From Methanobrevibacter sp. TLL-48-HuF1 (GTDB lineage Archaea > Methanobacteriota > Methanobacteria > Methanobacteriales > Methanobacteriaceae): DNA of 64,000 bases. The notes beneath the pieces were generated by a model. That model searched no databases, was not told the DNA's origin, and saw nothing but the letters and a program-made list of their open reading frames with translations. The stretch lies in the NCBI RefSeq assembly GCF_023617305.1, contig NZ_CP081485.1, positions 372,001 through 436,000 of the forward strand, given 5' to 3'. Made by a program: the position numbers and the translations under genes. Shown here one piece after another: positions 2,436 to 46,183 of the stretch (within the stretch, counting starts at the first letter, position 1; every line of letters starts with the position of its first letter).

Positions 2436-3773
<1,338 letters not shown>

Positions 3774-3864
3774 CTACAACCCATATTCTTAAAAATCCCA
3801 TATTTTATATCCCTTCTAAACTAAATATGATGTGCGTTATGATTTTCAATATAAATATATCACA

Positions 3865-3903
3865 TGTTATAGTGATATATAACAATAGTTATTTAACATA
3901 TAT
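3865..3903 (-). promoter_or_regulatory. Promoter/operator module 1 upstream of metY
   Basis: An inverted repeat TGTTATA-N6-TATAACA occupies 3865-3884. On the minus strand a TATA-box-like TTTATATA lies at 3896-3903, about 12 bp upstream of the palindrome, so the palindrome should overlap the transcription start. Binding there would block initiation. The same arrangement is repeated at 3962-4001 and resembles the cysK upstream region. Regulator identity is inference. Confidence 0.55.
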
Positions 3904-12375: not shown

Positions 12376-12447
12376 AGGCAAGCTAGGGATTTGAACCCCA
12401 GTATCATGGTCTGCAGCCACGCACCTAAGCCGCTCGGTCAGCTTGCC
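12376..12447 (-). tRNA. tRNA-Cys (anticodon GCA)
   Basis: On the minus strand, a 7-bp acceptor stem (GGCAAGC / GCTTGCC) encloses a D-arm with GAGCGG, an anticodon stem-loop CGTGG-CTGCAGA-CCATG with anticodon GCA, and a T-arm with loop TTCAAAT. The base after the acceptor (12376) gives U73, the discriminator typical of tRNA-Cys. CCA is not encoded and no intron is seen. It lies between cysS and the cysE-linked regulator. Confidence 0.97.
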
Positions 12448-42952: not shown

Positions 42953-43783
42953 ATGGAATTTATCAAAACAATAAATGCAATTAAATGGAAAAATGGGAAT
43001 TGCGAAAAAGTAGAAGAAAAAACTGTTGAAGATGAATATGCTTATTTATTTATTGATTATTTGCCTCCAAGAAAGTTTTCAGTTTATCCAAAAAACTTAG
43101 ATGACTTTGCAATTGGATATTGTCTTGGAGAAGGTTTAATAAAAACAAATAATGATATAAAAAATATAAAAATAAGTGAAACAAATGTATTAGTTAAAAC
43201 TCGTCTTAACCATACTCCTGAAGAGGACTTTGAGCAGGAAGGAATAGTCCAAAAAAGAAAAGGAGATTGCGAGCATGCATGCGTTTGCAGATTACTTGAA
43301 TATCAGGGAGTAAATTCCGATAATGCCGGAGGAATCAGATCCCAATTAAAAACAATAACTCCAAATAATTCCACTTTAAAAATAGATGCAACACAAATTA
43401 TAAAAGACATGGAAAATTTAAAAGAAAATGCTAAAATTTGGCAAGAAACAGGCAGTGTTCATGCAGCTCAATTAATTTATAAAGATAAAAGCATTATAAG
43501 AGAAGATGTTAGCAGACATGTAGCTGTAGATAAAGTTATTGGAGCTGCTTTTAAACTAGGATACGATTTAACACAATCATACCTTACATACAGTGGAAGA
43601 ATGCCTGCAGATATGCTTATAAAAGTAATAAGAGTGGGAATTCCAATTATCATATCTAATGCAGCACCTGCAGCTTCAGGATATGAAATAGCTGAAAAAG
43701 GCAATATAACCATGGTTGGTTTTGTTAGAAATAACAGATTTAATCTCTACAGTGCTCCGCAGAGAATAAATCTTGAAAAATAA
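42953..43783 (+). CDS. fdhD: Formate dehydrogenase accessory sulfurtransferase
   Basis: Passes sulfur from a cysteine desulfurase to the molybdenum/tungsten cofactor of formate dehydrogenase. Family motifs: FAIGYCLGEGLI (55-66), the cysteine region GDCEHACVC near 103-111, GSVHAAQ, REDVSRHVAVDKVIGAA and YSGRMPADMLIKV. The usual CxxC loop appears here as a CxxxCxC arrangement. Length 276 aa. No formate dehydrogenase genes lie in the window. Its stop codon lies inside a 38-bp repeat that marks the edge of an integrated element. Confidence 0.9.
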   Translation: MEFIKTINAIKWKNGNCEKVEEKTVEDEYAYLFIDYLPPRKFSVYPKNLDDFAIGYCLGEGLIKTNNDIKNIKISETNVLVKTRLNHTPEEDFEQEGIVQKRKGDCEHACVCRLLEYQGVNSDNAGGIRSQLKTITPNNSTLKIDATQIIKDMENLKENAKIWQETGSVHAAQLIYKDKSIIREDVSRHVAVDKVIGAAFKLGYDLTQSYLTYSGRMPADMLIKVIRVGIPIIISNAAPAASGYEIAEKGNITMVGFVRNNRFNLYSAPQRINLEK

Positions 43784-43811
43784 AAGAAGTAGTTTTTTCT
43801 ATTGTGTTTCT
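43774..43811. repeat. Left direct repeat (attL-like)
   Basis: Matches 45772-45809 at 37 of 38 positions (A versus G at 43788/45786). Contains the last codons and stop of fdhD (43774-43783) followed by a TTTTTTC run. Confidence 0.8.
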
Positions 43812-43919
43812 AATTTTTTACAATTTAACTTTTATTCCCCCAAGCTTTTAAAAAGTACTGTTTTTTACTTTTTATTAACTAACTTCATTACTCCTTAACT
43901 CAACTCGCAATTTTTTTAC

Positions 43920-44963
43920 TTATTTTCCTTCAATCCTTTTTATTTCTTTAATCATTTTATCAAAATCAGATTCAAAGGTTTTATCTTGTTTAACCCTAAA
44001 TTTCTCATATTCACTTTTTGCAATTTCTTTAGCTTCTTTTGAGGATATTTTTCCTTTATCCAATAATCTTGGTAATTCATTTAAAGTAATATAACTGTCT
44101 AACACATTTTTCCAATCTGCCATACTTGTAGGAATTTTTCTCATAGCTCTATTTTCAGCTAATGTTAAAAAACCATCCACTAAAGTATTTAATAATTTAA
44201 GTTCCTTTTCTTTTAGATAATTTTTTGCTATTACAACATCACTTTGAATTATTTTCCCATTAGGTGATTTGCTCCAAGAAGTCAATCCCATATGTGGTTT
44301 ATCACTGTCACTACGTTCTGAAATTATTTCTGCAGCAGTTTTTTCACTTACTGCATATATTAATTTATTTTGTACTGTAGCAAAAAATTCTTTTGTTATT
44401 TCAGATTCAAAATTATAATCATAACTTGTTGCATAAATATCAGTTATTTTCTGATTAAATCTTCTTTCAGAGGATCTAATTTCACGAATTTCTTCGAGTA
44501 ACTCCTCAAAATAATCTTTAGTAAATCTTCCCCCTTTCTTCAGAAGTTCCTTATCTAATACAAAACCTTTAACCATATATTGCTTTAAAATAGCATTAGA
44601 CCATTTACGAAACTGAGTGGCTTCTTTACTGTTTATTCTATACCCTATCGATATAATTGCATCAAGATTATACCATATTTGAGGCCTTCCTCCTTTTTTA
44701 GAGTTTATCAACTCTGAGTTGATAAACTCGGATTTCTCCTCAAATAATTTTTTGGAACTTAAACTAACTTCATTTTTATTTAACTCTCCATCCTGAACTA
44801 TATTACTGAAATGCTTAGATATATTTTGAGTACTTGTTCCAAAAATTTCTGCAATAACTTTTTGACTAGCCCATAATGTATCATCACCAATAATAAATTC
44901 ACCTTCAACAGATCCCTCTTCACTTTGATATAATAATTTTTCAACTAATTTAAATTCCACCAT
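43920..44963 (-). CDS. RhuM family protein (virulence/mobile-element associated)
   Basis: A 347-aa protein. An N-terminal HTH-like region (ASQKVIAEIFGTSTQNISKHF, here cut for length) leads into the family core KKGGRPQIWYNLDAIISIGYRINS and TQFRKWSNAILKQYMVKGFVLD. A helical C-terminal half follows (~150-347). RhuM proteins are found on pathogenicity islands and mobile elements of bacteria and archaea; the biochemical role is unknown, though a phage-defence or DNA-binding role has been suspected. The gene is the only intact cargo of the integrated element. AGAGGT precedes the ATG. Confidence 0.88.
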   Translation of the reverse strand: MVEFKLVEKLLYQSEEGSVEGEFIIGDDTLWASQKVIAEIFGTSTQNISKHFSNIVQDGELNKNEVSLSSKKLFEEKSEFINSELINSKKGGRPQIWYNLDAIISIGYRINSKEATQFRKWSNAILKQYMVKGFVLDKELLKKGGRFTKDYFEELLEEIREIRSSERRFNQKITDIYATSYDYNFESEITKEFFATVQNKLIYAVSEKTAAEIISERSDSDKPHMGLTSWSKSPNGKIIQSDVVIAKNYLKEKELKLLNTLVDGFLTLAENRAMRKIPTSMADWKNVLDSYITLNELPRLLDKGKISSKEAKEIAKSEYEKFRVKQDKTFESDFDKMIKEIKRIEGK

Positions 44964-45288
44964 AATTTATATAACCTCTACACTTTACTCTCCAAAAAAA
45001 ATTAATTATGTGTTTCTTGTTTTTATATTTATATTATAAGTTAATATAAATGTTTCTATTCAAAAAATTAACCTTAAAAATACAATATATTCAATAAAAA
45101 TAATAAAATGCAAAACATTATTCAGTATAAAAAAATAAAACACATTGAGTTCTAAATTTTAGTGTTTAATTAGTTTTGTGAAATGTTAAGTTATTGTTCA
45201 TTTTACAAAAAATACTATCACTTCATCCAAACCATTCATTTTATATTATAAAATATTTTCACTAAATTAATAAATCTTCAAAAACATG
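44964..45288. other. Non-coding part of the integrated element
   Basis: AT-rich sequence upstream of the RhuM gene and downstream of the integrase relic. It should contain the RhuM promoter. I see no open frame with coding character. Confidence 0.4.
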
Positions 45289-45529
45289 TCAACCACCTTT
45301 TAAGGTCTGTTTCATATGATATTCTTGTGTAGATTCAGTAAAAATCAGTTACATTTAAGTTTAAAGTTTCCATTCTAGCACAACCATTTGTACTCATAAA
45401 TAATATTGCTGCTTTCATTAAGTTGTCTGCAACATCTAATGCGACTTTTATTACTTCATGATCGGGCAAATCTTTATAATTTATTGGTAGCGTGATTTTC
45501 AAGCTTTGTGTGATTATGGGTGGTAGTCT
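45289..45529 (-). pseudogene. Tyrosine recombinase (integrase) fragment with a frameshift
   Basis: On the minus strand the translation reads YKDLPDHEVIKVALDVAD, then LFMSTNGCARMETLNLNVTDF. This is the first catalytic box of archaeal integrases, with its Arg in GCARMETL. After the Asp-Phe pair, one extra T in a T run shifts the frame. The next frame continues as TESTQEYHMKQTLKGG and stops at 45289. The HxxR and Tyr boxes are absent, so the gene is dead. Recognised from memory of Methanobrevibacter integrases. Confidence 0.75.
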
Positions 45530-45566
45530 CTGTTGGGGGCGTAATTGTATTTGAGGACCAGTTCTT

Positions 45567-45670
45567 CCTCTTCTTCAGCCCCCAATAATTAGTTCGCAAA
45601 ATGTTTTATTGTAAAATTTAGTGTATTGTTTTATTATTACTTTTATCCGTTTATAGGGGCTGAAGAGAGG
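45567..45670. repeat. Imperfect inverted repeat near the right end of the element
   Basis: CCTCTTCTTCAGCCCC at 45567-45582 faces GGGGCTGAAGAGAGG at 45656-45670, with ~73 bp between. It is unusually GC-rich for this window and may be a recombinase-binding arm or a remnant end. Confidence 0.5.
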
Positions 45671-45771
45671 TTTCTTTCTAACGAAAATTCTTTTAACAGT
45701 TTTCCATCATTGCCCATATTTCCTATTTTTACCTTTTTATTTTTTTTATTAAACTCTTATATGAAAGCATT

Positions 45772-45809
45772 TGAAAAATAAAAGAGGTAGTTTTTTCTAT
45801 TGTGTTTCT
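45772..45809. repeat. Right direct repeat (attR-like)
   Basis: Partner of 43774-43811. Contains the CMD gene stop codon (45797-45799) and its last four codons. Confidence 0.8.
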
Positions 45810-46123
45810 GCAACGCTATTTAAAATTTGAACAGCCTTACTGAAAGCAGGCATTCCAGAAGTTAAAAGGACAATTTTCAAAACATCCATTATTTCTTCTT
45901 TAGTAATGTCTAATTCCTGCATTCCACTTTTTATTTGTTTTTTAGTAGCTCTTGGATCTGCTCTTGAAGCTGTAATTCCAATAGCTATTAATTTTTGGGT
46001 TTTATAATCAAGAGCATGTCCGTCATAAACTACTTCACTTATATTTTTAACAAGGTCATAAAGGTCAGGATATTCTCCTTCAAGTTCATGAATTCCTTTT
46101 CCATAAAAAACTTCATCTTTCAT
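45797..46123 (-). CDS. Carboxymuconolactone decarboxylase-like protein without the CxxC site
   Basis: About 108 residues with the CMD fold (five to six helices; KTQKLIAIGITASRADPRAT, then SGMQELDITKEEIMDVLKI). In AhpD-like members the corresponding segment has CxxC plus His acting as a peroxidase-linked thiol pair; here it is ASRADPRAT, so thiol chemistry is not possible. ATG 46123 is chosen because AAGGTGA lies 8 nt before it; the GTG at 46135 is inside that ribosome site. It is convergent with fdhD, with the integrated element between. Confidence 0.82.
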   Translation of the reverse strand: MKDEVFYGKGIHELEGEYPDLYDLVKNISEVVYDGHALDYKTQKLIAIGITASRADPRATKKQIKSGMQELDITKEEIMDVLKIVLLTSGMPAFSKAVQILNSVAETQ

Positions 46124-46183
46124 ATAACCACTCACCTTAATTGATTGGTTATTATATAAAAAATAAGTTATATATAAATGTAA

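Follow-up and report, generated by a model that had tools for sequence, protein, structure and literature searches.

The 2.0-kb insert between fdhD and CMD in Methanobrevibacter sp. TLL-48-HuF1 is most likely a collapsed MSTV1-like provirus with an intact RhuM gene

In the genome of Methanobrevibacter sp. TLL-48-HuF1, an insert of 2.0 kb lies between the convergent genes fdhD and CMD, with two direct repeats at its borders. Does this locus hold a small element complete in itself, or the remains of something larger? The initial annotation described an integrative element with RhuM as its single cargo. Our analysis of the surrounding window (the whole 64-kb stretch of DNA studied) bore this out only in part: the insert contains blocks collinear with Methanobrevibacter smithii tailed virus 1 (MSTV1, PP537965; named Msmi-Pro1 in PMC8371274), and most of its integrase gene (int) is deleted. 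On these sequence comparisons, the int-proximal end of an MSTV1-like provirus, shortened by deletion, is a better reading of the insert than a small element complete in itself. Its parts and flanks are as follows.

42953..43783, plus strand: fdhD, left flank, with its stop inside the left repeat (ORF; PF02634, 1.2e-55)
43773..43811, plus strand: left direct repeat, attR-like, far from int (repeat search, genome counts)
43812..43919, no strand assigned: 108 bp from the left repeat to the RhuM stop, with a 20-column likeness to the MSTV1 right end that is too weak to count
43920..44963, minus strand: RhuM gene, intact, 347 aa, PADLOC candidate PDC-S05 (ORF; PF13310, 8e-97; PDC-S05, 1.1e-127)
44914..45204, minus strand: start of RhuM with the non-coding DNA upstream of it, at 88% identity to MSTV1 3261-3548
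45211..45253, minus strand: scrap matching MSTV1 2415-2459 (84%; the score of the wider stretch was reached in 0 of 500 Markov-sampled sequences)
45263..45282, minus strand: 20 bp that match the MSTV1 integrase gene exactly at its end, FEDLLI (DNA and protein comparison)
45341..45526, minus strand: integrase pseudogene piece, residues 103-164 of 384 (53% over 62 aa; whole-window E 2.4e-15)
45763..45774, minus strand: int-proximal motif TCAAATGCTTTC, one mismatch to TCAAATGCTCTC (the window's sole match with at most one mismatch)
45771..45809, plus strand: right direct repeat, attL-like, next to int (repeat search, genome counts)
45797..46135, minus strand: CMD, right flank, with its last codons and stop inside the right repeat (ORF; PF02627, 1.3e-8)

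The repeats, 39 nt each, are identical at 38 of 39 positions and lie 1998 bp apart from start to start. Among the seven families of direct repeats of at least 30 nt listed in the window, this pair is the most alike (97%; the next reaches 93%). The left copy contains the fdhD stop (43781-43783) and the right copy the CMD stop (45797-45799), as the initial annotation had described, and its calculation that collapsing the two copies would leave these stops 15 bp apart agrees with the coordinates. At the borders of the insert, each host gene retains its own stop and a short T-rich stretch behind it. With up to three mismatches allowed, a 36-mer of the repeat matched its own genome (G000, 1,951,395 bp) twice in the forward and never in the reverse direction, and gave no match on a backwards control. 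The 32-bp core of the repeat is present in one of 67 genus genomes, its own, and its absence from the other 66 rules out a common terminator, the alternative that the initial annotation had raised against itself; the genome holds a single pair. The annotation had also proposed to look for the repeat beside other integrases, and exact searches for the core in viral contigs and genome contigs, collections that may omit records near the window's genome, returned no match. The flanking direct repeats of a tyrosine-recombinase element (attL/attR) are present at this locus.

The insert is absent in two relatives. In the closest, G006, fdhD and CMD adjoin with 2 bp between their stops (from coordinates and sequence), and the single site aligns with the repeat copies on either side, without 13 bp of the repeat's middle. 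In the more distant G005, the two genes are convergent across a 14-bp spacer of different sequence. The expectation of an empty site in which CMD follows fdhD directly was therefore correct, but its literal form, with one copy of the repeat, was found in neither relative, as neither site carries the full 39-mer. Since the G005 spacer is 14 bp and the collapsed spacer of the window 15 bp, a 13-bp deletion in G006 would be the simpler reading of its shorter junction. CMD lay inside the fetched flank (at most 1.5 kb) in one of 29 fdhD loci (L004, of L004-L032), a set that leaves out G005, so the empty-site comparison rests on two relatives. In G005 (contig C53, locus L197), two separate stretches of the fdhD gene itself align, residues 1-98 and 116-276, both in a single open frame, and the inner stretch between them differs or is missing.

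A blastn search of the insert against phage records matched seven of them, MSTV1 best. Five blocks of insert DNA follow the int-proximal 3.9 kb of MSTV1 (0.5-3.9 kb) in the same order and orientation, corresponding to MSTV1 504-573 (int), 1224-1243 (int end, 20 bp identical), 2415-2459, 3261-3548 (88%) and 3780-3872 (RhuM). In the insert, two of these belong to int and one to RhuM; of the remaining two, one falls between the two genes and the other mostly upstream of RhuM. The collinear homology expected of an MSTV1-like provirus thus runs from int to RhuM, together with one discordant feature: the copy of the virus in G006 gives a further short block at 45245-45276 (33 columns, 6e-4), which is out of order and in opposite orientation. 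This G006 provirus is 100% identical to PP537965 over 11,769 bases; the host given in that record is M. smithii ATCC 35061. A candidate homology to the right arm of MSTV1 was rejected as too weak, as 35 of 1000 Markov-sampled sequences scored as high. At the protein level, where 23 of the 53 MSTV1 proteins were tested, the insert was matched by the integrase and the RhuM-type protein; one further protein (h36308) matched the window far from the insert. As for the structural genes expected of such a provirus (terminase, portal, capsid), no structural protein of MSTV1 within this tested set matched the insert, and the terminase had no match in G000 in a search run without a positive control.

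MSTV1 thus resembles the insert in its related integrase, in the gene order from int to a RhuM-type gene, in the 88% identical DNA upstream of RhuM and in having integrated at the 3' end of a protein gene on the int strand. It differs in its length of 38.8 kb, in a RhuM-type gene of just 143 aa, and in its 11-bp core, GTAGACACGAC, which sits at a different target gene, so that its attachment site is not shared with the insert. This core was read by eye from the MSTV1 junctions, and a script search found no exact repeats of at least 14 at the MSTV1 ends. The virus is reported as active in the part of PMC12134362 that deals with it, and Msmi-Pro1 is placed in a heavy-metal cation efflux gene in the corresponding part of PMC8371274. 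The same part describes prophage psiM100 of Methanothermobacter wolfeii as having an AT-rich intergenic att and no tRNA, and by this description it, too, is like the insert.

An intact integrase next to one att, expected of a working tyrosine-recombinase element, was not found; the insert holds a pseudogene. The integrase fragment reported in the initial annotation is real (53% identity to the MSTV1 integrase over 62 aa, 3e-17), but its description as frameshifted understates the damage, since most of the protein is missing. Approximately residues 103-164 and a copy of the last six codons remain of 384. The missing stretch, approximately residues 165-378, is where the later catalytic residues of this family, the tyrosine among them, would lie. 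Judging from what it retains, this integrase is unable to work as it stands. A further, N-terminal piece proved to be a low-complexity match (1 of 500 Markov-sampled sequences) and was left out of the parts listed above. A search of G000 with a 55-aa integrase piece matched the relic itself alone; the same genome has three PF00589 matches.

The right-hand edge of the insert can be compared with those of related elements through a motif, TTACTTNTCAAATGCTCTC, that recurs upstream of related integrases. Its 12-base core, with at most two mismatches, was found in 33 of 42 integrase loci, where it precedes the estimated int start by 46 to 67 nt; the 42 were chosen mostly from the top of the match list for the integrase piece and are not independent. 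Random stretches of the same loci did equally well in at most 2.4% of draws. Further upstream, the loci differ in sequence; nine loci lack the motif (L115, L125, L127, L131, L132, L135, L136, L142 and L149). In the window, the motif and the right repeat share 4 bp at the repeat's inner edge, and the motif lies about 57 nt ahead of the likely int start. One occurrence with at most one mismatch compares with 0.48 expected, and at least one was found in 36 of 100 shuffles; given such chance matches, its place alone is telling. Because the repeat was found without using the motif, this place supports the right copy as a putative attL at the CMD 3' end. In many loci the motif reads YFSNAL or similar, as the coding end of a single host gene might; this idea was abandoned because most frames upstream are short and they do not resemble one another.

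A search of the 42 loci for direct repeats returned long repeats at six (L094, L095, L114, L120, L121 and L122); it missed the short core of MSTV1, and draft contigs and the 20-kb limit may explain misses. At L114, L120, L121 and L122, a direct repeat of 31-33 bp containing the motif lies on both sides of the integrase gene, about 1.27 kb apart. L094 (6185-12893) and L095 (7328-13522) have 32-bp repeats in common and two modules whose order is swapped between the two genomes: one with the integrase and an MCM-like ORF, the other with an ABC-transporter-like ORF and RhuM (named by eye). Of the two modules in each genome, one is flanked by the two repeats found there.

Where do such elements integrate? 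In 9 of 31 loci, a same-strand ORF of at least 600 nt has its end no more than 60 bp from the motif, compared with 1.23 expected at random places taken from the same loci; the other 22 show no such ORF end. The 31 are those with the motif and enough flank, and include several near copies. MSTV1, placed at the 3' end of a protein gene on its int strand, follows this arrangement, and in the window CMD lies on the int strand and ends about 15 bp before the 19-base motif. No tRNA was reported at 34 integrase loci, in a check without a positive control, and the sole tRNA found in the window is at 12376-12447, away from the insert's att-like repeats. The repeat pair and this tRNA scan support the proposal of att-like repeats at a gene end other than a tRNA; the target is better described as the CMD 3' end on the int strand, as in MSTV1, than as the terminator of convergent genes. 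Resting on 9 of 31 loci plus the window, gene-end targeting without a tRNA appears as a recurrent property of this integrase subfamily, though 22 of the 31 are without it. In four genomes (G025, G054, G041 and G037; loci L192, L193, L194 and L195), the CMD start has an integrase of the same subfamily about 0.1 kb away and divergent from it, with the same element end joined to CMD as judged by eye; the loci L194 and L195, which look alike, themselves stop inside CMD at a contig edge. The CMD 5' end thus also looks like a recurrent target.

The RhuM gene noted between the repeats in the initial annotation was confirmed as an intact ORF of 347 aa (PF13310, 8e-97). Both PF13310 and PADLOC PDC-S05 cover most of the protein, residues 8-343 aligning nearly full length with PDC-S05 profile positions 11-336 of 342, and RhuM is accordingly a candidate defence gene, its defence role being that of a database candidate. 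A toxin-like role is proposed in the relevant text of PMC3710099, and the passages of PMC12988326 and PMC13356809 that name PDC-S05 use or count it, no more. Homologues, fragments included, occur in 49 of 67 genus genomes. None of RhuM, fdhD and CMD was found in viral contigs, searched for close relatives only; RhuM had no match in PHROGs and nothing useful in PDB by sequence. Its predicted structure is poor (mean pLDDT 59.8), and the best PDB match of this model, DdrC (E 2.1e-3, TM 0.25), is a lead only. A perfect 14-bp inverted repeat lies within the coding sequence at 44701-44729, and its likeness was seen in L097, L098, L099 and L101.

The two parts of the RhuM locus point to different sources. 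In its coding part, identity reaches 73% to the RhuM genes in other genomes, compared with 48% to the MSTV1 fragment, whereas the upstream DNA is of the virus type (88-89% to MSTV1/G006); the weaker, mostly short upstream matches in 48 further genomes were taken for AT-rich noise. The locus would then be a mosaic, as if one allele had replaced another behind a control region that stayed constant. Compared with 22 relatives, third codon positions of RhuM differ most, and the seven closest (69-73% identical) have a dN/dS of about 0.12-0.16, their dS of 1.2-1.8 being near saturation; dS could not be computed in 5 of the 22. Third positions also differ most between the broken integrase piece and MSTV1 (0.26, 0.34, 0.56), so that the pattern reflects a long past and is no proof of present selection on RhuM. 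Selection may nonetheless be what keeps the gene.

How, then, should the insert be explained? That repeats, integrase piece and RhuM all fall within 2 kb would suit a small integrative element whose whole content was int and one RhuM cargo, with only int decayed since, and L095 offers a RhuM-bearing module between direct repeats without an integrase of this subfamily. We consider this unlikely: the MSTV1 scrap at 45211-45253 and the detached integrase C-terminus show that DNA between int and RhuM was lost, and the same gene order in MSTV1 belongs to a 38.8-kb virus. Slightly less probable still, and compatible with a provirus, is that the segment remains mobile in trans, its repeats being functional att sites at which the integrase of a superinfecting relative excises the 2 kb with RhuM. 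The 38/39 identity of the repeats speaks for this, as do the shared 32-bp repeats and swapped module order of L094 and L095, but the integrase piece matched only itself in its own genome. A duplication by repair or slippage around a captured RhuM gene, with no att site, would account for the G006 and G005 sites that differ from the repeat; with an integrase relic adjoining the repeat and the int-proximal motif at its edge, we regard it as very improbable.

The reading that we favour with good confidence is that the insert is a degenerate, collapsed MSTV1-like provirus. Against it we count the difference between the repeat and the MSTV1 att, the closer similarity of the RhuM coding part to other genomes, the weak right-arm likeness, the empty sites without the full 39-mer, the discordant block in the G006 copy, the failure of all tested MSTV1 proteins but the integrase and the RhuM-type one to match the insert, the 22 loci without a same-strand gene end and the frequency of chance motif matches in shuffles. 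Direct observation covers the repeats, the absence of the insert in two relatives, the MSTV1-collinear blocks, the broken integrase and the intact RhuM gene; we infer the order of events, where the crossover took place and that the missing DNA amounted to a whole virus. An MSTV1-like temperate virus would have integrated at the CMD 3' end by means of its tyrosine integrase, so that a copy of the att-like 39-bp repeat came to lie at each border. Internal deletions would then have removed the structural and replication genes and most of int, so that the provirus could no longer excise itself, while RhuM and its virus-type upstream region remained. RhuM may have been kept because it protects the cell against related viruses.

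Tentatively, and with more doubt than belief, we suggest a wider picture: RhuM would be a domesticated antiviral gene left by the virus and still driven by the virus control region, and the integrase would belong to a Methanobrevibacter subfamily that has the constant end motif TTACTTNTCAAATGCTCTC next to int and enters many protein-gene ends (3' ends, and the CMD start in four genomes), so that the element edge could be read from sequence. A literature search listed no paper on this insert. The host archaeon is closely related to the human gut methanogen Methanobrevibacter smithii. If the reading is right, the locus would show, in a near relative of the main human gut methanogen, a provirus that has decayed until a single candidate defence gene is left intact. 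It would also provide a simple sequence mark for the element edge in a widespread archaeal integrase subfamily, one that would make the host target sites of many Methanobrevibacter elements findable.
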